From a virus: 29,897 nt of DNA. Made by a program: the position numbers and the translations under genes. The stretch covers positions 1 through 29,897 of IMG/VR virus record IMGVR_UViG_3300042907_000045. One strand, given 5' to 3'. Below are positions 8,386-29,897 of this stretch, piece after piece. The notes under the pieces were generated by a model. That model saw only the letters and a program-made list of their open reading frames with translations, was not told the DNA's origin and did no database searches. Positions within the stretch are counted from its first letter, which is position 1, and every line of letters begins with the position of its first letter.

Positions 8386-8736
8386 TTATTGTATTACTCT
8401 GTTTTCTAAGTCTTCTGTTATTCTTTGATCACTAATCTCAGTTACTCTGTTGTCAGTTGCTGGAGGACCTCCCCCTGCAACCAATAGCCATGCCTCTAGC
8501 CAATTAGCATTGATTGTGACTGTACCTCCTAACTCTAAGACTATATTCATAAGGTAATCATCTGATGTACCAGGATCTCCACCTACTACAGATAGTATCT
8601 CTCCTATTAAATCTTTAGAGTTAGATACATCTATACCATAATGATTAGCTATAGCAAATATGTAAGATTCATTCAATGGGGGATAAGTCCCTACTGAATA
8701 TGCTGTAGCAATGTCTCTAAGTATATCATTACTCAT
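8386..8736 (-). CDS. First gene of the tail unit, hypothetical (116 aa)
   Basis: An acidic 116-residue protein (MSNDILRDIATAYSVG) without signal peptide or membrane helix. It has a Gly/Pro-rich middle (VVGGDPGTSDDY) and a second hydrophobic part (NWLEAWLLVAGGGPPATDN) followed by a charged tail. It stops 3 nt before the fibre start. It is the first gene behind a copy of the late-promoter motif, which ends at its ATG. Given its position, it may be a minor virion or fibre-associated protein, but no family is recognised. Confidence 0.7.
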   Translation of the reverse strand: MSNDILRDIATAYSVGTYPPLNESYIFAIANHYGIDVSNSKDLIGEILSVVGGDPGTSDDYLMNIVLELGGTVTINANWLEAWLLVAGGGPPATDNRVTEISDQRITEDLENRVIQ

Positions 8737-8767
8737 AACTATATTACATTAAGATAGCTTTTTGTTT
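8737..8767 (-). promoter_or_regulatory. Late promoter motif copy 1 (tail unit)
   Basis: Reading the minus strand, AAAC is followed by 15 nt, then TGTAAT, ATAGTT and the ATG at 8736. The same bipartite arrangement occurs at 25051, 27627 and 29299, always directly before the first gene of a late unit. The -10-like box lies 6 nt before the ATG, so a transcript starting at the usual distance would have almost no leader. The promoter role is inferred from recurrence and position. Confidence 0.65.
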
Positions 8768-9935
8768 AGAACGAATAATAGGAGTCATCGGTGTAATACT
8801 CCTGCCTGATGTAAGTGGTAGCATATCGGATAGCATCCATAGCATCATCGTACAGCTTCACAGGTTCATCCATAATCTGATCAGCTATCTTCTTCCATTT
8901 ATAATTCTCATACTCTTTCATTATCTGCTTATCCTCCTGACAAAATACTCCAAAGGTTTTTATGTTATCTATGCCTTTCTTCACTACCTTGTTAGCATTG
9001 TGTACATCATACCCTGCAGTATTCATTTCGGCAATTATCTCAGGTCTTGAGTAGTCTGCCATGATTTCTATATTCTTATCCACATTCAATGCATCCATCT
9101 TCTCTATCAGCTGAGTAGTGGTAAGGTAGCTCTCATAGATTACCTTCTCAATGAAGATATCATTGTCACAGTAGTAGACTCTCACTAGAGCTGTAGGGTG
9201 GTTATATCCAAAGTCAAGTCCCATTACATACTTTACGAACTTAACAGGTCTATGAGCTATAAATGTCCAATTAGAATAGATGTTACTCTTAGAGATAGCT
9301 TTCTCCCCTAGAGCATATATCTGATACATTGCCTCATCAGTTCTCTTCAAGTCCTCAATCTGCTTTTTAATGCTATCAGGTAGGAATGGATTGTCCCGGT
9401 AGGTAGACTTAATCAGGATGCTTTCCTCAGTTGGTAGGTCATATAGCCAGGAGGATGACTCAGATGGATTGTAATCAAAGATTAGCTTGTCCTCTGTTCT
9501 CATGTTCAGCTGAGTAAAGTCATCATAGAATAACTCATTGGCCTCATTGCACCATGCCACATCTCTCTTCCTACCCCTTATCTTCTGCTCATCATCTACT
9601 GAGAAGAACTCTACTATAGATCCACTAGGGAATGAGTAGATATGCTCTGACTTGTTATGATTGCTTATCTCATAGATGTCCATGCTCTTTAGAATCTCTA
9701 GAAAGTCCCTCATGACTGTAGCTCTCAGTGCTGGGAATGTCTTTCTGATAATTGATACTACTTTACCGCTATTTTGTAAGCAGTAGACTATTAGCATCTG
9801 ACAAAGGCTGTAGGTCTTAGAGCTTCTACTGCCACCCTCATTGATAATGAATCTTAATGCAGGATCAGTGAGAGCTGCATAGTTCTTTTGGAATATAACT
9901 GTACTATTTATCTCCATTGGCATAAGCATAAGCAT
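8766..9935 (-). CDS. terL: Terminase large subunit (PBSX/Terminase_3 type)
   Basis: The packaging motor, which pumps DNA into the prohead and cuts it. The Walker A-type loop GGSRSSKT is at 34-41. A Walker B-type strand with catalytic Glu is at about 126-132 (VAWCNEA). The RNase H-like nuclease has acidic residues at D241 (GLDFG), D294 (MADYSRPE) and D363-D367 (DDAMD). Length (389) is slightly short of the usual 400-450 but all motifs are present. In-frame ATGs lie at 9935, 9929, 9923 and 9917. The last (MEINSTVIFQKNY) looks the most natural start, and the earlier ones overlap a 46-aa upstream gene. Unusually, the next gene is not a portal: the portal lies about 13 kb further on. Confidence 0.93.
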   Translation of the reverse strand: MLMLMPMEINSTVIFQKNYAALTDPALRFIINEGGSRSSKTYSLCQMLIVYCLQNSGKVVSIIRKTFPALRATVMRDFLEILKSMDIYEISNHNKSEHIYSFPSGSIVEFFSVDDEQKIRGRKRDVAWCNEANELFYDDFTQLNMRTEDKLIFDYNPSESSSWLYDLPTEESILIKSTYRDNPFLPDSIKKQIEDLKRTDEAMYQIYALGEKAISKSNIYSNWTFIAHRPVKFVKYVMGLDFGYNHPTALVRVYYCDNDIFIEKVIYESYLTTTQLIEKMDALNVDKNIEIMADYSRPEIIAEMNTAGYDVHNANKVVKKGIDNIKTFGVFCQEDKQIMKEYENYKWKKIADQIMDEPVKLYDDAMDAIRYATTYIRQEYYTDDSYYSF

Positions 9936-10471: not shown

Positions 10472-10679
10472 TGTCCTCTTCCTCTATTATAGTCTCAGGA
10501 GTAGGTATTGGTCCTTTGACTGCTTTGTACTTTACTACTTTAGGCTCAGATACTGTAGGCTCTTCAAACATATAGCCTAGACCTATAGATACAAAGTAAT
10601 CATATCTATTAGCATCTAAAGTAATCCTATTACCTTTGTGGGAGATCTTAGCTCCAATAAATTCATCTTTAATTTTCAT
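10458..10679 (-). CDS. Hypothetical phage protein (73 aa)
   Basis: A small protein with a basic/hydrophobic N-terminal part (MKIKDEFIGAKISHKGNRIT) and an acidic, Pro-rich tail (PTPETIIEEEDNGQD). It overlaps the sigma-like gene upstream by 11 nt and the small terminase downstream by 14 nt, so it is part of a translationally coupled terminase operon. The pattern KIKDEFIG.KI...N.ITLD..RYDYFVSIGLGY resembles small proteins found beside structural genes in Bacteroidetes phages. The function is unknown. Confidence 0.7.
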   Translation of the reverse strand: MKIKDEFIGAKISHKGNRITLDANRYDYFVSIGLGYMFEEPTVSEPKVVKYKAVKGPIPTPETIIEEEDNGQD

Positions 10680-11196
10680 CTCTTAGGTTTTTTAAATCGT
10701 TTTTTATCTCTTGTATCCAATAATGAGCAGATGTAACAGGTATTCTGAAATATTCTGCCATTGCTCTAGCTGTACTGTATCCTTTATCAAAGTAACATTG
10801 GAACACTATCAGCTTAATCCTATCTGTAATCCTACCTCTATATGTCTCAATCACTGCCATGTTGTTCTGATACTGCATATCATCTCGTATCTTATCGTAT
10901 AAATCCGTATCATCATCCATCATTATAGGCATAGTACTATCAGTAGCTGTTATTCTCTCCTGCCTATTAGTTAGGGATGTAGACCATAGTATCTGCATCT
11001 TAATAGTATTTAATAGATATGCTTTCACCTTACCTGGATCAGTTACCTCTTTATCTATATTACATAAATAAATAAAAGAGTTATTTATTACAGCATCGGC
11101 AGATATTGTAGACTTCATTATAACTAGAAAATAGTTAGTGTATTTCCTTATCTCTTTATAGTGAGCTGATATGTATTGGTCAAGTATAGGTCTCAT
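10669..11196 (-). CDS. Sigma-factor-like DNA-binding protein (175 aa)
   Basis: A 175-residue helical protein whose layout resembles a small sigma-70/ECF factor. The N-terminal helices (about 1-70, ISADAVINNSFIYLCN) look like region 2. A variable acidic linker (MDDDTDLYDKI) follows. The C-terminal part (about 128-170, IVFQCYFDKGYSTARAMAEY then FRIPVTSAHYWIQEI) fits a region-4-like helix-turn-helix. It lies just upstream of the terminase genes, a usual place for a late-transcription activator, and could read the recurrent late motif. Similarity is by pattern only, so a plain HTH regulator is the alternative. It overlaps the gene upstream by 17 nt. Confidence 0.5.
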   Translation of the reverse strand: MRPILDQYISAHYKEIRKYTNYFLVIMKSTISADAVINNSFIYLCNIDKEVTDPGKVKAYLLNTIKMQILWSTSLTNRQERITATDSTMPIMMDDDTDLYDKIRDDMQYQNNMAVIETYRGRITDRIKLIVFQCYFDKGYSTARAMAEYFRIPVTSAHYWIQEIKNDLKNLRDEN

Positions 11197-13520: not shown

Positions 13521-13547
13521 TTTAAGTTAGTAATATATGCAAATATA
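13521..13547 (-). promoter_or_regulatory. Early promoter element, copy 1 (recombination unit)
   Basis: The 27 bases here are identical to 19055-19081. Read on the minus strand they contain TATATTTG (13540-13547), a match to the Bacteroidetes -7 box TAnnTTTG, followed by CATAT. The box edge lies 30 nt before the ATG at 13510, close to the 31 and 33 nt seen at the other two copies. No clear -33 TTG was found upstream. Confidence 0.7.
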
Positions 13548-13569
13548 CAAATAATCATTTAATAAATAA

Positions 13570-16601: not shown

Positions 16602-16755
16602 TTTTTTTTTTATTAATCATTAGTAATTCTCTTTCTTTTAATTTTTCTAGCAGTTCAATTGCTTTAGCCCTGTCATTTCCCGATATTTCAAAAGATGTAA
16701 GACAATGGGGGTTTTTTGCAATAAGTTGGCTTATTTTTTTTTCTGACATTGCCAT
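16585..16755 (-). CDS. Small basic protein overlapping the amidotransferase gene (56 aa)
   Basis: This frame runs from ATG 16755 (MAMSEKKISQLIAKNPHCLT) to TGA 16585. It overlaps the end of the amidotransferase gene by 25 nt and the start of the MazG-like gene by 17 nt. The sequence KISQLIAKN...ISGNDRAKAIELLEKLKERE could be a small winged-helix-like or helical domain with a Lys-rich tail. An internal start at 16749 is also possible. The packing supports it, but the A-rich DNA here makes chance frames likelier. Confidence 0.5.
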   Translation of the reverse strand: MAMSEKKISQLIAKNPHCLTSFEISGNDRAKAIELLEKLKERELLMINKKKNETNK

Positions 16756-18035
16756 ATTTCTTTATGTTTAGTATTAATTAAATTTATATTAAAAGGTTTA
16801 TCGTTTAAATACCTAAGAGGTTTTTTTTCCCCTTTTAAGATATATTCTGGCAATATGTTTTTATAAGTATCCTTTAGGATTTTTTTATTAATCCTATCTG
16901 TCCTTTGCAAGGAATTTGAATATCGAAGTAAGTCCATACTCATTAATGGAGATCTAGCTTCTTTTGTAAATGCCATACTCATTCGATCAAGTCTTATATT
17001 ATGATAAAATGGTAATTCTTGAAAAACATCATATTCCCAAGTGTCGTTTTCTTTTGCTCTGTTATATCCGCCAAATAATTCATCAGCGCCATCTCCTGTT
17101 AAAACAATTGAATTTTTAGCATTTTTAAAAAGTAAATACTGGGGCATTAAACTTCCATAATCTAAAGAGTATTCATAAAAATAAATAGCATTATTTAATT
17201 CCGTTGGAGTAAACTTGTCAGATATAAAATTACAAGCTAGTCCATACTCTTTACATATTTTTTCTACTCCCTGTGCTTCTTCGTTTTCAATTGAAATTAA
17301 ATCTATTTCCTTAGCGTGTTTTAAAACATGATGCAAAACAATATTCGAGTCCAAACCGGAGCTTAATAATAAAGAAACTCCATCTATTTTATTTTGCAAT
17401 CTTCTTTTAACGGATAGGTCAATTAAAGAATATAAATCTAATTTGCTTTCCATTTTTAAATAATTAAGCGACATTAAAAGAAAAGGTCTAGTATTATTTT
17501 TTTCATAAAGATAAAACTTTCCAGGTAAATAACGATGGACTGTAGTAAAATTAGTATTTAAAGTCCCAAAGTGTTTTTCAGAATAGCTGTTATATTCATA
17601 GGTTTGTAATATCCCTTTTATTTCAGATGAAATACCTATATTATTATAATACAATTGTTTTTTTCCTAATGGATCTGTAAAAGAAAACACATCGCCATTT
17701 TTACAAATAATAGAAATAGACCAAAAACCGTCCCATTTAACTGACTCTTTATATAAGGACAAAGGATCCGTTTTTAATTTAATAAATTGAGTTTTTAAAT
17801 AATGCAAATCAGATTGACTAGATGGCATTAATTCTTGATGATTAAAAATCTCGCCATTAAAAACTAAAAGCTTACCGTTGCATTCTATTGGTTGAATTAA
17901 ACCGGTTTTATTACTAGACAAAGGCAAAGAGTCAAAAGATGTTATCCAATCATTAAATTCTAAAGTAAGATTAGACAAACCTCTGTGCTTAATTTTATTT
18001 TCAATAGGTTTTTTTGTTATTGTAAAGCCGCACAT
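16731..18035 (-). CDS. Asparagine-synthetase-like glutamine amidotransferase
   Basis: A two-domain AsnB-family enzyme, 434 residues against about 500-630 usually. The N-terminal Ntn glutaminase has Cys2 (MCGF), HRG (17-19), FNGEIFNHQEL (N60, E62) and DPLGKKQLYY (121-130). The C-terminal ATP-PPase has the loop SSGLDS (225-230, canonical SGGxDS), TGDGADELFGGY (313-324), RLDRMSMA (348-355) and KGEKKPLRYL near 401. All key sites look intact, so it should pass ammonia from glutamine to an AMP-activated carboxylate. The acceptor may be aspartate, or a modified nucleotide or DNA base given the neighbouring TS-like gene, which it overlaps by 19 nt. It is shortened mainly at the C-terminus. CpG use is intermediate, hinting at separate acquisition. 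Confidence 0.85.
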   Translation of the reverse strand: MCGFTITKKPIENKIKHRGLSNLTLEFNDWITSFDSLPLSSNKTGLIQPIECNGKLLVFNGEIFNHQELMPSSQSDLHYLKTQFIKLKTDPLSLYKESVKWDGFWSISIICKNGDVFSFTDPLGKKQLYYNNIGISSEIKGILQTYEYNSYSEKHFGTLNTNFTTVHRYLPGKFYLYEKNNTRPFLLMSLNYLKMESKLDLYSLIDLSVKRRLQNKIDGVSLLLSSGLDSNIVLHHVLKHAKEIDLISIENEEAQGVEKICKEYGLACNFISDKFTPTELNNAIYFYEYSLDYGSLMPQYLLFKNAKNSIVLTGDGADELFGGYNRAKENDTWEYDVFQELPFYHNIRLDRMSMAFTKEARSPLMSMDLLRYSNSLQRTDRINKKILKDTYKNILPEYILKGEKKPLRYLNDKPFNINLINTKHKEIWQCQKKK

Positions 18036-18763
18036 TTTTCTAGTATTTTTTTAAGTGAATAAATATCTGATATAAAGCAGTGGAAACTACCAATCCAGAC
18101 TGAAAGTTCTCCAAGTTCAATTTCTGTATTTTCTAAGCTTTGTAACATTTCCATTGCCAATCTTTGAGCCATATAAATGTCATTTCTAAAATGTCTACGC
18201 GCATCGCATGACCGAATTAAATATGTTACGTCTAGTTTATTATTGTTTACGTAAAACCAATAACCAATAGTGCATGGTAATCTAACGTTATTATTTGATT
18301 GATCTTCCGGGTGCCAAATAGATAAAAATGCTTGACGTGTTGTAAGATCATTTTTTAATCTATTTTTAATATCCAACCAATCTCCCATTTTAAACCTATT
18401 TCCTTCTTTTTTGTTTGGCCAAAAACGTTCTTGATATGTGTGACTAAATTTACTATCAGATCTAAAACGATCGTCATCAAGATCTTTTCTATAATAAGGC
18501 CAATTTTTATATTCATTTCCAGGATTGCTGTTACCTGAGATTCTTTCTATAAAATGATCTTCGCTCCAAGGTAAATCTGCTAAAGTTTGTTTTGACAAGT
18601 TATCTATATTTTTACACATTTCCATTTTCATAAATAAATTATTTACTTCCGTTATTTTGGTGTCTAAAGGTAAGGATTGCCATTTATGGGTTGTTTTTTT
18701 ATTTTTACTATTTAGTAAAACCCGAATTGCATTATTTATAGCATTATTTGTTTTCATAGACAA
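18017..18763 (-). CDS. Thymidylate synthase superfamily enzyme, dCMP (hydroxy)methylase-like
   Basis: A 248-residue ThyA-fold protein. WHPEDQ then RLPCTIGYWFYV carries the catalytic Cys164. Exactly 20 residues on is RSCD (R184, D187), as in E. coli ThyA (C146, R166, D169). R143 matches R126. At the position of ThyA Asn177, the pyrimidine-binding residue, this protein has Asp195 (FRNDIYM), the change found in T4 dCMP hydroxymethylase. His147, Gln165 and Gly173 are replaced, and HxY becomes H228-C-F230. It likely acts on a cytidine nucleotide, forming methyl- or hydroxymethyl-dCMP. The N-terminal part is unusual. It overlaps the DUF6378-like gene by 20 nt. M3 is an alternative start. Confidence 0.78.
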   Translation of the reverse strand: MSMKTNNAINNAIRVLLNSKNKKTTHKWQSLPLDTKITEVNNLFMKMEMCKNIDNLSKQTLADLPWSEDHFIERISGNSNPGNEYKNWPYYRKDLDDDRFRSDSKFSHTYQERFWPNKKEGNRFKMGDWLDIKNRLKNDLTTRQAFLSIWHPEDQSNNNVRLPCTIGYWFYVNNNKLDVTYLIRSCDARRHFRNDIYMAQRLAMEMLQSLENTEIELGELSVWIGSFHCFISDIYSLKKILEKCAALQ

Positions 18764-19054: not shown

Positions 19055-19081
19055 TTTAAGTTAGTAATATATGCAAATATA
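19055..19081 (-). promoter_or_regulatory. Early promoter element, copy 2 (modification/replication unit)
   Basis: The sequence is identical over 27 nt to 13521-13547. On the minus strand TATATTTG (19074-19081) matches the Bacteroidetes -7 box, and its edge is 31 nt before the ATG at 19043. It would drive the 10-gene unit from the DUF6378-like gene through ninG. A -33 TTG is not evident. Confidence 0.7.
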
Positions 19082-19092
19082 AATAAAATTAT

Positions 19093-20386: not shown

Positions 20387-20407
20387 TATTAATTATATGC
20401 AAATATA
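20387..20407 (-). promoter_or_regulatory. Early promoter element, copy 3 (first early unit)
   Basis: On the minus strand TATATTTGCATAT is shared with the other two early elements, though the downstream half differs. The box (20400-20407) edge is 33 nt before the ATG at 20367. A TTG occurs 13 nt upstream of the box, closer than the usual -33 position. Confidence 0.65.
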
Positions 20408-20417
20408 CATACTATTT

Positions 20418-22836: not shown

Positions 22837-23396
22837 ATTATTAAGATTGAATTATTGTACCCATTGCTATTGTTACCACACAATCCTGTACATTCTAGTA
22901 AGCCATTAGATAAACAGCTACAGCCATCAATCATAGGTCTAAGGTCAGTATCTCGGTTAGTTGTACCGGTGAATATTGGATACAAAGCTCTATTTTTAAG
23001 TAGGTATCTTATTAATCTCTGCTCAAAGAATGCAGCCTTTTGTGCATAGTGTTCCATACTGAATGCTATAGTACCTCTATCTACAGATGAGCTGTTATCT
23101 CCGAATTGAGTCTGTAGACCTTTGTTCTTTAGCTGTAATGATAGACCAAATACAGCATCCTCTGCTGCTCTCCATGCTATAATAGGCTGTATGAATGTAA
23201 CTAGAGTCTCTTCATCCGGATCTAAAGTCTGAGCATTGTACTTAGTTAGTAAGTCATTATAGAATGTAGTACCTAAGATAGGCATAATTCTTAGCTGAGC
23301 TTGAGTAGCTAAGTAAGGAGTAACATTGTTTACATCTACATTAGCTGTGATGGGTGTGTTATTCTTTAGATATGTTTCTGTTATAAAGTATAGCAT
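22833..23396 (-). CDS. Head-tail connector/head completion protein (DUF6712-like)
   Basis: A 187-residue, mostly helical protein directly after the portal. The opening (MLYFITETYLKNNTPITANV) and the LRIMPILGTTFYNDLLTKYN and LIRYLLKNRALYPIFTGT segments match the pattern of DUF6712-like proteins that follow portals in Bacteroidetes phages and resemble gp6-type adaptor rings. It has a DVNNV...LATQAQLRI part and ends with a Cys/Asn-rich tail (CSCLSNGLLECTGLCGNN) which is unusual and could bind a metal. It overlaps the portal gene stop by one nt. Confidence 0.7.
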   Translation of the reverse strand: MLYFITETYLKNNTPITANVDVNNVTPYLATQAQLRIMPILGTTFYNDLLTKYNAQTLDPDEETLVTFIQPIIAWRAAEDAVFGLSLQLKNKGLQTQFGDNSSSVDRGTIAFSMEHYAQKAAFFEQRLIRYLLKNRALYPIFTGTTNRDTDLRPMIDGCSCLSNGLLECTGLCGNNSNGYNNSILII

Positions 23397-24706
23397 TATA
23401 TTATAGGTGTTTGTGCAATTTGTGTTTTGCTTTTATCTCCTCCAGGTACAGGAGGTAAAGATGCTAAGGCTCTAATCTCATTCTCAGTCATAGTCTCAAG
23501 TACTTTAGTAGCTACCAATGGTGATAAGGTATTAAGTGCATCATTAATCTTAGATGTATCTCCCTCTAATTCTACAATAGCCTCATTAATTATCTGATAG
23601 TTATTGATAGTGAAATCTGCATCTATCTTAGCTATAAATAGTAGCTCATTAAAGATGTCAGCTACCATATCTCTCAATGGCATTACTACATTTTTCTCAA
23701 ATATGATATAAGCCTGCTTAATATCTGAGCCATTACCTAGTGAGCCTGTAGTACGGATTCCCATAAGTATAGGATCAATGGTGTGAGAGAAACATATCTG
23801 CTCAGTATTAAGCTGTGATGCCTCTTGAAATAGACTATCATTACCATTGGTAGGTAGTGACTCTATCTTTGGTAGTTGGTCCTGACTATTAGCAAAGAAT
23901 GCCACAGCTTTACCTGCATTGGCAGCACCTTTCAATCGATCAATGGTATTTCTTATCATGTTCTTCTCCTCCTCAGACTGAGGTCTTTTAGGAAACATCA
24001 TAGCAAAGCTAGGAAATACTGAATTTTGAATATTACTTTTAGCAAAGTATGAAAGCTCGCCACTCAAAAATGCATAATTTAAAGAAGAGGTATAAGAAGG
24101 TAATGGATAGAAATCCTGACCTATGCTATCTACCTCATACACGAATAGTTGCTCGTAATCTCTAGAGGTAGGGGTGTATCTCCTTATCTCCTGTACTCCA
24201 ATCCTACTAGACCAATCATCACAGATATAGTATCTTTTTCTATCTAAGTTTATTCTAAGTTTCTCAGGGGATAGATTGACTATCTTTGTGAGCTTCATCT
24301 TATCATCAAAACATAGCTTGAAATAAACTCTATTGTGCAGTATTAGTTGCTGAGTTACTGCAGGAACTACCTTTTTTATGTTTAATTTTCTCTCTAGTGT
24401 ATATAGCTCTAGCTTATCCTGTGGAGTAAGTCTATCAGCTACTATATTAAATCCACCTCCTACAGCTGCATTCACTTTATACCCTACAATAGAGCCATGC
24501 AGTGGACTGCTGTAAAATATTTGATTGAGTAGCTCAGGGAATAGGTTATCTTGCCCAAATGGAATATATCCATTAGTCTGATTCCTACCATTAACATAGG
24601 GTAGAGTTAAGTTAGCACCTCCTACTTTAAGGAATGGAGTAGAGAATGATTGATATCCCTCTACTATTTCATGCTTTACTGTTTTAAAAAAGTCTTTTAA
24701 TGCCAT
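23396..24706 (-). CDS. Portal protein
   Basis: A 436-residue portal, forming the ring through which DNA enters and leaves the head. The N-terminus (MALKDFFKTVKHEIVEGYQS) and the NGYIPFGQDNLFPELLNQIF region, followed by PLHGSIVGYKVNAAVGGGF, are characteristic of portals from Bacteroidetes phages. Later parts (LRINLDRKRYYICDDWSSRI and the clip-like YFAKSNIQNSVF) and the acidic C-terminal helices fit the family. Length is near the usual 400-500. It lies downstream of the capsid module, in the same unit as lysis genes, not next to the large terminase. Confidence 0.85.
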   Translation of the reverse strand: MALKDFFKTVKHEIVEGYQSFSTPFLKVGGANLTLPYVNGRNQTNGYIPFGQDNLFPELLNQIFYSSPLHGSIVGYKVNAAVGGGFNIVADRLTPQDKLELYTLERKLNIKKVVPAVTQQLILHNRVYFKLCFDDKMKLTKIVNLSPEKLRINLDRKRYYICDDWSSRIGVQEIRRYTPTSRDYEQLFVYEVDSIGQDFYPLPSYTSSLNYAFLSGELSYFAKSNIQNSVFPSFAMMFPKRPQSEEEKNMIRNTIDRLKGAANAGKAVAFFANSQDQLPKIESLPTNGNDSLFQEASQLNTEQICFSHTIDPILMGIRTTGSLGNGSDIKQAYIIFEKNVVMPLRDMVADIFNELLFIAKIDADFTINNYQIINEAIVELEGDTSKINDALNTLSPLVATKVLETMTENEIRALASLPPVPGGDKSKTQIAQTPII

Positions 24707-24708
24707 AA

Positions 24709-25050
24709 TTACTCATAAATTGATGATACTATTGGTCCACTCACTACCATCCTACCCTCTTCAATCACTACTCCTGTAGAGTTAGCAATAGTTGGAGGTG
24801 TGATATATGACTCATAGATGCTATATGTATATTGTCCTTTGATTAGTTCCAAATCTACAGGCTCATCCAATAAAAACTGATTAAATCTTTCAGGATAAGC
24901 TGAGCTATCAGGAGTGTAGAATGTAATAGGTGCAGAAAGTTTGTCCATTTCATTCTGAAAGACAAACAAATAATAAGGATTCGGCAGTGTACTTACCTCA
25001 GTGAGTGTAAGGATTATCTGATTGACCTCATCTTTTTTAATGTATATCAT
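24709..25050 (-). CDS. Hypothetical virion-module protein (113 aa)
   Basis: A 113-residue protein (MIYIKKDEVNQIILTLTEVS) with several beta strands (PYYLFVFQNEM, GQYTYSIYES). Proteins with this N-terminal MIYIKK..NQI.LTLTE pattern occur by portal and capsid genes in Bacteroidetes phages, with no known role. It is the first gene of the portal-lysis unit, directly behind a late-promoter motif and a terminator, and ends 2 nt before the portal start. Confidence 0.75.
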   Translation of the reverse strand: MIYIKKDEVNQIILTLTEVSTLPNPYYLFVFQNEMDKLSAPITFYTPDSSAYPERFNQFLLDEPVDLELIKGQYTYSIYESYITPPTIANSTGVVIEEGRMVVSGPIVSSIYE

Positions 25051-25083
25051 ATAACTATATTATACTAAGGTCAAAAAATGTTT
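25051..25083 (-). promoter_or_regulatory. Late promoter motif copy 2 (portal-lysis unit)
   Basis: On the minus strand AAAC, 15 nt, TATAAT, ATAGTTAT and then the ATG at 25050. It follows directly on a terminator (25084-25114), so new transcription must start here, which is the strongest positional support for a promoter role. Confidence 0.75.
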
Positions 25084-25114
25084 AAAAAAAAAGCCCTAGT
25101 ATTACTAGAGCTTT
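25084..25114 (-). terminator. Rho-independent terminator after the capsid/tail-tube unit
   Basis: AAAGCCCTAGT (25090-25100) pairs with ACTAGAGCTTT (25104-25114) with one mismatch around a 3-nt loop. On the minus strand it is followed by a run of nine Ts (25084-25092, partly in the stem). It lies 20 nt after the tail-tube stop. Confidence 0.88.
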
Positions 25115-26663: not shown

Positions 26664-27626
26664 TTAGTTATTATTATTTAAAAATTTACTTACCATGCTG
26701 AATTTATCATGCTGTGATAATTTAGTAGCTTCTACTTCCACTACTTCCTCACCTTCAGACATTACTTCCTCCATATGATTTCTTAAATCAGCTATCATTG
26801 CTATAATAGCATTGATTTGCTCATCAATTACAGGTTGAACTATAGCTAGTATAGCTTCAGCATCAGCAGCAGGATCAATAGCCATCTCTTCTGTGGCAGG
26901 TGTCTCCTCTATTACTTCCTCTTCTACTACTGTATCTTCTAGTGCAATCTCTTCTGTCATTGCTTCTTCTTCAACAACAGGTGCATCTTTAATCTCGATA
27001 ATCTCACCGTCTACTACGACATAGATCTTACCATCAATTAGATGTTCTCCATCTGGTAATTTATTCATACTATATTTATTTATTTGATTACTTAGTTTTA
27101 AGCCTAAGAATCCCTCAATAGAGAAACCTATCTGCTCATTCTTTACTAGCTCATTATAGTAATCTTTATCAGTTACCTGAGCTGTTACCATTAATGTGCC
27201 TTTAGGTACTTCAATACCATAGCTAGAGTAGGCTTTGTCTTTCTTAGGATCTTCTACTATCCATGCCTCAAGTACATAAGCAGGCACTGTCTTATCAGTA
27301 TCATGCTCTAGGTTAAATACATTCCTATTAGATAGGTCTTGCATAAACTTAGAATGAATCTGCTCAATCGTCTCAGCTGAGAACTGTACGTAATACTCTT
27401 CATCATTCTCATCATTCCTATATATCTCCATAGGTATCATGGCAGGAGCTACTACTCTATACTTCAAGTCATCTGAGAAAAACAATTTTTTGTGTTCATC
27501 AAATGCCATTCCTTTAGTAATAATAGCAGGAGTTGAGGTGAAAGCTATCTGCTCAATCCCTAACTCTTCACCATCTGAATACTCAGGATCAATAGTTATT
27601 TTATAAATTGGGATATCTTTTGTCAT
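26664..27626 (-). CDS. XkdF-like prohead protease fused to a scaffold
   Basis: A 320-residue two-part protein. Residues about 1-180 are an XkdF-like serine protease (GIEQIAFTSTPAIITKGMAF, NLEHD with H108, IGFSIEG with S169), matching the His/Ser pair of herpesvirus-assemblin-type prohead proteases. Residues about 214-260 are extremely Glu-rich (VVEEEAMTEEIALED), and 253-295 form a helical coil, the usual look of a scaffold. The scaffold would direct capsid assembly and then be cut by its own protease. It lies directly before the capsid gene and is headed by a late-promoter motif. Confidence 0.82.
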   Translation of the reverse strand: MTKDIPIYKITIDPEYSDGEELGIEQIAFTSTPAIITKGMAFDEHKKLFFSDDLKYRVVAPAMIPMEIYRNDENDEEYYVQFSAETIEQIHSKFMQDLSNRNVFNLEHDTDKTVPAYVLEAWIVEDPKKDKAYSSYGIEVPKGTLMVTAQVTDKDYYNELVKNEQIGFSIEGFLGLKLSNQINKYSMNKLPDGEHLIDGKIYVVVDGEIIEIKDAPVVEEEAMTEEIALEDTVVEEEVIEETPATEEMAIDPAADAEAILAIVQPVIDEQINAIIAMIADLRNHMEEVMSEGEEVVEVEATKLSQHDKFSMVSKFLNNNN

Positions 27627-27653
27627 AACTATATTATATTTTTCTTATATTTG
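27618..27653 (+). promoter_or_regulatory. Promoter for the plus-strand gene pair
   Basis: On the plus strand TTTTG (27618-27622) and TATATTTG (27646-27653) match the Bacteroidetes -33 and -7 boxes with a 23-nt gap, 17 nt before the ATG at 27670. It overlaps the late-promoter motif on the other strand. Confidence 0.6.
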
Positions 27654-27656
27654 TTC
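27627..27656 (-). promoter_or_regulatory. Late promoter motif copy 3 (protease-capsid unit)
   Basis: On the minus strand GAAC, 14 nt, TATAAT, ATAGTT and then the ATG at 27626. The spacer is one nt shorter than in the other three copies. The upstream genes lie on the other strand, so a promoter is needed here. Confidence 0.72.
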
Positions 27657-27669
27657 AAAAATTAAAATT

Positions 27670-28248
27670 ATGATAAAATTATTCGGCAAAGAAATCCCAT
27701 CTAAGATGGATGAATTAACACTAGAGCAATTCCAAAAGATATCTGCTATTCATAATAGTGATGAGTATGATACCCTAGAGAAACATTGTAAAGTCTTTGA
27801 ATACTTAGGTATAACTGAGGAGGAGATGGATATAGACTTTGAGCTGTTCTTAGAGAATGTTAAGTTGTTTAATAAAGATAACTATACTAAGAAAGATGCT
27901 GTTGAAGAGATAGAGATAGATGGCTATACTTATAGAGCAGAGATGAAGCTCTCAGTAAAAGATTCTAGGATTGTTGAAAAGATAGTTAAGAAAGATAATA
28001 AAGAATATATTTCTGAAATTATGGCTCTAATGTTCAAACGAACTGACCTATCCAATGCTGAGCATTATGATTCTGCACATCTAAAACACAAAGCTAAACT
28101 ATTCAGCAAGCTCAAAGCAGATATAGCTATCCCTTACCTTACCTTTGTAACCTACAAAATCACTAACCATGCAGAATCTCAAGTTACCAAAGCATTGGAA
28201 TCAGATATCAGTGAGTCAGTTCCTGGAGATCAGGAGTCTGAGCAGTGA
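27670..28248 (+). CDS. Possible tail assembly chaperone 1 (192 aa)
   Basis: One of only two plus-strand genes. The protein opens MIKLFGKEIPSKMDELTLEQ and has helical, acidic parts (YLGITEEEMDIDFELF), a DGYTYRAEMKLSVKD centre and YISEIMALMFKRT. The layout parallels the next gene (basic start, LTxEQF, centre, I.AL.(F/Y)(K/R)RT), suggesting two diverged copies. Helical paired proteins near tail genes suggest tail assembly chaperones that coat the tape measure, but opposite-strand location is odd. The last 80 nt overlap the next gene in another frame. A protein of unknown function is the honest fallback. Confidence 0.65.
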   Translation: MIKLFGKEIPSKMDELTLEQFQKISAIHNSDEYDTLEKHCKVFEYLGITEEEMDIDFELFLENVKLFNKDNYTKKDAVEEIEIDGYTYRAEMKLSVKDSRIVEKIVKKDNKEYISEIMALMFKRTDLSNAEHYDSAHLKHKAKLFSKLKADIAIPYLTFVTYKITNHAESQVTKALESDISESVPGDQESEQ

Positions 28249-28897
28249 GGATGGAATGTTTAACTATCAGATTGATGTACTTTCTGCTTTAACAGATAGC
28301 AATATCTCTGAATTTGAGGAGCTAGATATAGATGAGCTAAGTGAATTGACTAAGCAGATTAAATGGATACAGGCTGATCCATCTAGGAGGTATAAGAATA
28401 AGCTAGATAATTATGTACTTAAGCCATTTAGTAAGCTATCACTAGGTGAGTTCATAGACTTAGAGCATTACTTCTCTAATAACTACCTAGACCACTTCTG
28501 CCATATCTTAGCATTGCTGTACAGGAGAACATCTAAGAATGTTTATGGTGATGACATCATTGAGCCTTATGAGTATAGTCCTAGAGATAGATTAGATTGG
28601 TACTTAGACTATCCAATTACTGATGTTTATGGATTGATACCTGAGTATATTAAATTTAGGGAGAACTTTACTAATACCTATACTAATCTACTAGTAGATG
28701 TGGTACCTGATGATGAGGTGCTAGAGGATGCTGATGAGATAAAAGAGCAGAAGAGAGAACATCAAAAGCAGAAATTTGCTTGGGAGTCCACTATCATGGC
28801 TCTATGCAATGATGACCTAAGCAAGTTCAATGATATCCTAAATATGCCTGTAGTGTTAGTCTTTAATATCTTAGGAATGAAAAAGACTTTAGACTAG
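28169..28897 (+). CDS. Possible tail assembly chaperone 2 (242 aa), overlapping paralogue
   Basis: A 242-residue acidic helical protein. Its start (MQNLKLPKHWNQISVSQFLE) mirrors the upstream gene start (FGKEIPSKMDELTLEQF), and its centre (FSKLSLGEFIDLEHYF, then HILALLYRRTSK) mirrors that gene's centre, so the pair are probably paralogues. The ATG lies within the upstream gene, shifted +1, and the alignable N-terminus supports independent initiation. The C-terminal QKREHQKQKFAWESTIMALC region is a Lys/Glu-rich helix. The stop overlaps the 3' end of the minus-strand gene by 4 nt. The role as a chaperone is inferred only from the tail/head setting. Confidence 0.62.
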   Translation: MQNLKLPKHWNQISVSQFLEIRSLSSEDGMFNYQIDVLSALTDSNISEFEELDIDELSELTKQIKWIQADPSRRYKNKLDNYVLKPFSKLSLGEFIDLEHYFSNNYLDHFCHILALLYRRTSKNVYGDDIIEPYEYSPRDRLDWYLDYPITDVYGLIPEYIKFRENFTNTYTNLLVDVVPDDEVLEDADEIKEQKREHQKQKFAWESTIMALCNDDLSKFNDILNMPVVLVFNILGMKKTLD

Positions 28898-29298
28898 TAA
28901 TCTAGCTCTCCATAAAACTCTCCGAATAAAGGCTCGAATGAATATAGTATATCTCCTCCTCTTTCTAGTATGTTATCTATTTCTAAGATAGGATATTTAG
29001 TTGTAAGATATTCAGTATATCCTCCCCAAATCTCGGCATAGATTCCATCCTCATCTAATGCTGCATCAAATTGCCTAAGTAGATTATAAGCTCCTATAGT
29101 TTGTGTACCATTATTTAGAAATCCAAAGTAATAAGCTGCTACTATTTGTATCCTTAAATTAAAGCTATCACTAATCTCTGCATTGATTCTTACTGAATCT
29201 ACTAGAGTACCTGTGTCTACTAAGAAATTATTTCTAAGTACTCTTCTAAGTACTGTAGCCATCTTTCTACGCATTGGATATTTAATATTGTAAGGCAT
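28894..29298 (-). CDS. Tail completion protein, HK97 gp10-like (possible)
   Basis: A 134-residue protein with basic N-terminal helix (YPMRRKMATVLRRVLRNNF), then VDTGTLVDSVRI, the (V)DTGxLxxSI turn usual in HK97 gp10-like tail-completion proteins, and a VAAYYFGFLNNGT strand and turn (the Y..F...GT pattern). The acidic C-terminus (EPLFGEFYGELDY) is less typical. Such proteins join head and tail. It is a one-gene unit behind its own late promoter motif, 21 nt after the upstream tail gene, and converges with the plus-strand genes. Confidence 0.65.
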   Translation of the reverse strand: MPYNIKYPMRRKMATVLRRVLRNNFLVDTGTLVDSVRINAEISDSFNLRIQIVAAYYFGFLNNGTQTIGAYNLLRQFDAALDEDGIYAEIWGGYTEYLTTKYPILEIDNILERGGDILYSFEPLFGEFYGELDY

Positions 29299-29331
29299 AT
29301 AACTATATTATACTAAGTATTAAATTTGTTC
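29299..29331 (-). promoter_or_regulatory. Late promoter motif copy 4 (single tail-completion gene)
   Basis: On the minus strand GAAC, 15 nt, TATAAT, ATAGTTAT and then the ATG at 29298. The upstream box overlaps the last codons of the preceding tail gene (stop at 29320-29322). Confidence 0.68.
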
Positions 29332-29897
29332 TATTTCCAAAGTCACTTCTCCATTAGGACAAAAAGTATTATACACATGATAAGGCATCTCTAATCTTAC
29401 CCTGTTATCTCCATTGTCAAAGTATGTACCGTATTGAGTAAAATTACCTTGAAGATTAAGATTACAATTTTCAACAAAATTAGTAATGCTTCCTGCTGGA
29501 ATAGTTGTCTGAACATCCCACTGTACTCCATTACAAAAGAAAGTCATAGTATTTTGTGGAGGTATACTATCCCACTCTAATGCCTGACTATAGGCTGTAT
29601 ATATAGCAGGAATCTGACAGTTGGTCCATGATGGAATCACTACTGATAGATTCATCTGCCATCCTGCAGCATAGTCTAGTAGGTCATTATTCAATGGTAT
29701 GAATGTAGGCTGTCCATCTATATCAAAGTCATAGTCATCTGAGAATGTAAACTCTAGGTATAAATCCTGGAGTATCTGCTGAGTATCCGATAAGATAGTA
29801 GTGATGTTAGCTCTATCCATCTGTATAATATCAAAGCAATACAGCTCTAAATTAAAGATAGTGACATTCTCATAGGGAGTAACTCCTGTAGGTACTA
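29320..29897 (-). CDS. Tail completion/terminator-like protein, C-terminal part (238 aa, split by the contig ends)
   Basis: This is the continuation of the gene beginning at 266 across the circular junction. The frame enters open from base 29897 (the repeat copy) and stops at 29320-29322. An ATG at 29820 (MDRANITTILSDTQQILQDL) could be taken for a start, but it is codon 73 of the full frame. The middle part (NNDLLDYAAGWQMNLSVVIP, then CQIPA) completes a tail-terminator-like fold. The last 90 residues (about 150-238) contain beta-type sequence with several Cys and no recognised family, which may be an added domain. Confidence 0.75.
   Translation of the reverse strand, partial: VPTGVTPYENVTIFNLELYCFDIIQMDRANITTILSDTQQILQDLYLEFTFSDDYDFDIDGQPTFIPLNNDLLDYAAGWQMNLSVVIPSWTNCQIPAIYTAYSQALEWDSIPPQNTMTFFCNGVQWDVQTTIPAGSITNFVENCNLNLQGNFTQYGTYFDNGDNRVRLEMPYHVYNTFCPNGEVTLEIEQI
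29771..29897. repeat. Terminal repeat, right copy (assembly circularity)
   Basis: These bases are identical to positions 1-127. One copy should be removed when drawing the 29,770-bp circle. The exact length and the position inside a continuous gene argue against a true direct terminal repeat, though they do not show how the phage DNA ends are made. Confidence 0.95.

Follow-up and report, generated by a model that had tools for sequence, protein, structure and literature searches.

Predicted leaderless or near-leaderless late mRNAs and a candidate phage-encoded ECF-like sigma factor in a likely Bacteroidota phage

The window, meaning the whole 29,897-base IMG/VR virus record analysed here, begins and ends with the same 127 bases (1–127 = 29771–29897), and this terminal identity most likely marks it as a complete genome that maps as a circle, about 29,770 bp in length. 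Its gene content, which includes terminase, portal, protease, capsid, tape-measure, holin-like and endolysin genes, identifies it as a tailed phage, and since its terminase shares ~32% identity with the terminases of Flavobacterium and Parabacteroides phages, the host is likely a member of Bacteroidota. Searches of the window for Rfam families and tRNAs returned none. The late genes lie on the minus strand in four blocks, broken up by two plus-strand genes (27670–28897). These two genes (27670–28248 and 28169–28897) overlap and are apparently related to one another; neither matched a known family, and both are kept in relatives. Upstream of them lies TATATTTG, a host-type −7 box that overlaps the late −35 element of the opposite strand, an arrangement that suggests a possible switch. 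Elsewhere in the window, an asparagine-synthase/glutamine-amidotransferase gene (16731–18035) adjoins a thymidylate-synthase-like gene (18017–18763), and the pair could form part of a DNA base modification pathway.

Four minus-strand sites with a common two-part layout precede the late operons. The portal-operon site (25048–25084) reads TAAACA-14-TATAAT-8-ATG, with the −35 element TAAACA at 25084–25079, the −10 hexamer TATAAT at 25064–25059, a 14-bp spacer and the ATG at 25050; all orthologues keep it. The positions to which the original prediction was attached, 25051–25083, are thus those of the promoter of gene 24709–25050 (113 aa), the first gene of the portal operon, which is followed by the portal protein gene (23396–24706). 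The capsid operon opens with a prohead protease gene (Peptidase_S78_2; 26664–27626), and its site (27624–27657) reads TGAACA-13-TATAAT-6-ATG, with the ATG at 27626. A neck/tail-completion-like gene (28894–29298, a weak PHROG match) has a late promoter of its own at 29296–29332, AGAACA-14-TATAAT-8-ATG, with the ATG at 29298. The tail-operon site (8734–8768) reads TAAACA-14-TGTAAT-6-ATG, its hexamer being TGTAAT rather than the TATAAT of the other three, and stands before the first gene after terL (8386–8736, 116 aa; ATG at 8736). Its −35 element takes its first three bases from the terL stop codon TAA (8768–8766), and this overlap is preserved in distant relatives. Between the capsid and portal operons lies the intrinsic terminator of the capsid operon (25090–25114, minus strand), an 11-bp stem followed by a T run that leads directly into the portal-operon −35 TAAACA; the stem is kept in relatives as two sequence versions. 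Also on the minus strand, at 10669–11196, is the gene for a 175-aa sigma-like protein, our candidate late sigma factor.

The −10 portion TAATATAGTTAT is identical in the four late promoters and occurs as four exact copies in the window, each adjoining an ATG; allowing up to one mismatch gave 8 sites, compared with 1.6 expected and at most 6 in any shuffle. TAATATAGTTATG was found twice in the window and not at all in 100 shuffles, and the full bipartite pattern matched four times in the window and never in the reversed control. The claim that a TATAAT-like part lies 6–8 nt before the ATG in four late motifs therefore stands for the existence of all four, and needs narrowing in its spacing: the distance from hexamer end to ATG is 8 nt at 25050 and 29298 and 6 nt at 27626 and 8736, and never 7. 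That reading had captured the −10 side and its spacing correctly, and had missed the second promoter half, TRAACA, located 13–14 bp upstream of the hexamer. A sigma-70 consensus promoter scan of the window gave background levels, and a strict host-type search (TTTG-N17-23-TAnnTTTG) returned one site only. We also observed a repeated element, TATATGCAAATATA (TATATTTGCATATA on the minus strand), at 13534–13556, 19068–19090 and 20394–20416; it matches the host −7 box TAnnTTTG, and the repeats are probable early promoters.

To follow these sites among relatives, we fetched 159 IMG/VR loci by means of the 175-aa sigma-like protein and the capsid protein, located orthologues for 35 of the window's genes and inspected the 30 nt before each start. 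The motif, with up to two mismatches, was present in every distinct upstream sequence of the four late genes (29/29, 10/10, 10/10 and 26/26; 75/75 together), at a distance of 6 or 8 nt from the ATG in every case. None of the other 31 genes had it at the late-promoter position, one upstream sequence of one of them containing a two-mismatch match at a distance of 15. Across all fetched relatives, 143 distinct bipartite sites precede ORFs of at least 50 codons, many of them orthologous and hence not independent, and in 137 of these the distance to the ATG was 6 or 8 nt, with none at 4, 5, 7 or 9. A search of 14 whole records for AACA-N16/17-AATATA-N3/5-ATG yielded four sites in most of those of 24–30 kb, the window included, and two or three in shorter fragments. 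A 30,999-base record has five, its first and last probably being the same site in overlapping ends. Within each of the 14 records the sites occupy a single strand, the late one, and the reversed control gave 0. Scanning IMG/VR for TATAATATAGTTAT returned at least 120 matches; among those listed, 85 of 120 do not adjoin an ATG, many of these resembling ordinary promoters of unrelated phages, and all of the listed matches that do adjoin an ATG and have AACA at the right distance belong to relatives of this phage. The promoter-bearing relatives are a family of freshwater phages that probably infect Bacteroidota. What can be read directly from these sequences is the motif with its two-part geometry, its conservation, its exclusive association with the late operons, and where the start codons lie.

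More distant records, in which the sigma-like protein is 47–58% identical, have promoters in the same places and with the same geometry and a changed −10 text (for example GATAATATATATATG, TTTAATATATACATG, CTTAATATATAAGTATG and GACAATATAAGTATG). The gene after terL varies by lineage in these records, and the layout TAAACA-14-hexamer-6-ATG is retained. In the L180 clade (sigma-like protein 55% identical) the 3′ end of the sigma-like gene overlaps a promoter placed ahead of the following gene, and the same is seen in a MAG contig. Extra late promoters overlapping the 3′ end of this gene were noted in the L180, L220 and L310 records (G017, G018 and G006), with the terminase genes as their predicted targets; they are absent from the window clade.

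Where transcription would begin relative to the ATG depends in the first place on whether the annotated starts are correct. Each distinct upstream sequence contains an in-frame stop codon, the nearest at −12, −15, −21 or −51, and no ATG, GTG or TTG intervenes between it and the annotated start. For genes 24709 and 26664, variation in the codons just after the ATG is nearly confined to third positions, which account for 22 of the 23 variable sites. Given these upstream stops without an alternative start, and the coding constraint after the ATG, the sequence comparison indicates that the annotated ATGs of the late first genes are the true starts. The first base of the hexamer falls at −12 in two operons and at −14 in the other two. 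With the six bases that usually intervene after the hexamer, +1 would be the A of the ATG or the base two positions before it; it should be no further downstream, since in the 6-nt form the transcript has to include the AUG, and if the motif is a promoter, a leader beyond a few bases is excluded because the hexamer itself occupies the upstream sequence. Leaders of 0 nt are accordingly predicted for the protease/major capsid operon (first gene 26664–27626) and the tail operon (first gene 8386–8736), and leaders of 2 nt for the portal operon, whose mRNA would open AU-AUG with +1 at 25052, and for the neck/tail-completion-like gene.

In the 6- and 8-nt sites, a purine always occupies position seven after the hexamer, namely the A of the ATG in the 6-nt form and A or G in the 8-nt form, and with a single exception the next base is T. 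A single initiation rule (+1 R, +2 U) would explain spacings of 6 and 8 and the absence of 7. Because the usual spacing of sigma-E promoters, counted from the −35 element, would place the start ~3 nt further downstream, the position of +1 carries an uncertainty of about 3 nt. At the portal operon the terminator abuts the −35 element, so that no other promoter fits there and no room is left for a leader. The gene after terL could also be transcribed by read-through from the terminase operon, giving a leadered mRNA as well. The first 60 nt of the predicted late mRNAs are not unusually structured, which speaks neither for nor against leaderlessness.

We then considered which factor might recognize these promoters. 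By sequence, the 175-aa protein had no Pfam match at E up to 1, no PHROG match, no profile match among PDB sequences and no match among 50,697 annotated phage records; the PF08281 profile found nothing in the window record, and a genome scan for the protein identified one relative, in a pond MAG contig. An AlphaFold2 model, built from a shallow alignment and of low confidence (mean pLDDT 65), shows an N-terminal helix group, a poorly modelled linker and a C-terminal helical bundle, which is the order of an ECF-type sigma2 + sigma4 layout. Foldseek searches with this model returned mostly sigma factors, including SigL (6dv9, probability 0.99) and 9n9q (1.00). In structural alignments, residues 2–74 matched SigR region 2 (rmsd 2.5 over 69), and residues 107–175 of this pLDDT-65 model matched region 4 of E. 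coli sigma-E bound to −35 DNA (Z 8.0). Each of these scores is modest alone, Z reaching about 8 at most, and we take the agreement of both domains, in order, to carry the weight. An AAC core is a feature of ECF −35 elements, and TRAACA shares it. The sigma-like gene is present in 13 of the 14 promoter-bearing records, the only exception being a fragment that ends ~0.8 kb past the terL promoter, before the expected place of the gene. We use the term ECF-like for the protein and stop short of calling it an established ECF sigma factor, as its sequence matched no sigma profile.

An alternative that keeps the late promoters as described is that a host sigma factor reads them. Against this, the late promoter does not fit the host consensus TAnnTTTG, its −10 text shifts with the phage clade, every tested promoter-bearing contig that does not end before its place carries the sigma-like gene, and the model of the encoded protein resembles ECF sigma factors. 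The lack of a sequence-profile match between this protein and any sigma family leaves some weight on the other side, and flavobacteria do have several ECF sigma factors of their own (PMC9723704). We regard recognition by a host factor as unlikely, and it is the 175-aa phage protein, not the host main sigma factor, that likely reads the late promoters.

A second alternative is that transcripts start upstream and that the motif acts in the RNA, recruiting the ribosome to the ATG that it adjoins. The motif does lie exactly in the zone of contact between ribosome and mRNA, but it occurs solely before first genes and is absent upstream of inner ones, for instance the capsid gene, which has a typical A-rich start region inside its operon, and it has a conserved partner 13–14 bp upstream. 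In Flavobacterium, A at −3 and at −6 promotes initiation (PMC6847099); genes with the motif have A at −6 yet never at −3, where about half of the other genes have it, and since lacking A at −3 is unfavourable in Flavobacterium (PMC6847099), this too counts against a translation element. So does the terminator just upstream of the portal-operon site. Natural variation bears on the same question: after terL in L298/L305 the promoter is intact, with the first ATG 45 nt from the start of TAAACA and 19 nt past the hexamer. This displacement of the ATG by 13 nt relative to the promoter predicts a natural leadered variant with a leader of about 13 nt, and the separability of promoter and ATG in these records, with the promoter kept, argues that the motif is a DNA promoter element and not a ribosome-binding or RNA element. 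We consider an RNA element very improbable. Equally improbable is that a phage late regulator binds the motif as its operator or activator site and that the true promoter lies further upstream, since the partly palindromic TATAA-N5-TTATA that prompts this idea varies among sites and clades, the fixed 13–14 bp spacing and single orientation suit −35/−10 elements and not an operator, and the portal operon offers no space for a second promoter after the terminator.

Taken together, we propose that the four motifs are phage late promoters (−35 TRAACA, −10 TATAATATAGTTAT) that would be recognized by the phage ECF-like sigma factor encoded at 10669–11196 together with the host RNA polymerase core. 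The first-gene ATG of each operon would lie at the transcription start, so that transcripts would open with AUG in two operons and with AU-AUG in the other two, and may be translated as leaderless or near-leaderless mRNAs. Where transcription starts, which sigma factor acts and how the mRNAs are translated are inferred, and we hold with considerable confidence that the late promoters are read by the phage ECF-like sigma factor to give leaderless or 2-nt-leader mRNAs. The wider statement, that the whole late programme, structural and lysis genes alike, runs on such mRNAs with the start codon at +1 or +3, by way of a private and strongly diverged ECF-like sigma factor, appears to us somewhat better than an even prospect. 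The earlier suggestion that late mRNAs are leaderless is supported by the 6/8 spacing, the pinned start codons, the bipartite promoter, the portal terminator and the L298/L305 variant, with the amendment that two of the leaders are predicted to be 2 nt long. The idea that low use of Shine-Dalgarno sites makes leaderless mRNAs likely in this phylum is not upheld by published data: leaderless transcripts make up 5.5% of mapped mRNAs in F. psychrophilum (PMC9723704), and 5′ UTRs shorter than 10 nt ~3.7% in B. thetaiotaomicron (PMC7366714). In F. johnsoniae, 87% of predicted transcripts have leaders longer than 10 nt (PMC6847099), and median host leaders measure 24–32 nt (PMC9723704).

If the proposal is true, late translation in this phage relies on recognition of a 5′-terminal AUG in hosts where leaderless mRNAs are a small minority, and it would show that virus structural genes in Bacteroidota can be carried on leaderless mRNAs. 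It predicts a clean temporal switch, with late operons on leaderless mRNAs and a sigma factor too diverged for current profiles. The open-access literature yielded no leaderless late phage transcripts for Bacteroidota, and no phage late regulon built wholly of leaderless promoters and a private sigma-like protein. Such a sigma factor/promoter pair would be ready-made for use in tests and tools, in a phylum where few promoters are well understood.

Several known systems resemble parts of this arrangement. In T4, the phage sigma-type factor gp55 turns the host polymerase to late genes, whose promoters have the AT-rich −10 element TATAAATA; the late promoters described here likewise have an AT-rich −10 and a candidate phage-encoded sigma-type factor, but T4 late promoters have no −35 element, whereas here TRAACA lies 13–14 bp upstream and the ATG falls at the predicted start point. 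Bacteroidota sigma-A promoters (TTTG/TAnnTTTG) would share the same likely host RNA polymerase core and differ in sequence, the late motif being TATAATATAGTTAT, with no TAnnTTTG box at −12 to −5. The resemblance to ECF promoters such as those of E. coli sigma-E lies in the AAC-based −35, the sigma2 + sigma4 order suggested by the low-confidence model of the candidate and the small number of strongly conserved promoters; in contrast, the late promoters have a shorter spacer and an AT-rich rather than GTC/CGT-like −10, and the 175-aa candidate, unlike ECF sigma factors, lacks a sequence-profile match. A class of leaderless genes with a TATAAT-type box near −12 has already been described: in the TA-led leaderless genes of bacteria, a TANNNT/TATAAT box lies ~12 bp before the start codon, leaving no space for a leader (PMC3160421), close to the late hexamer here, whose first base is at −12 or −14. 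The TA-led genes are host genes, scattered and dependent on the main sigma factor, whereas here a whole phage late regulon would be served by a different, bipartite promoter.
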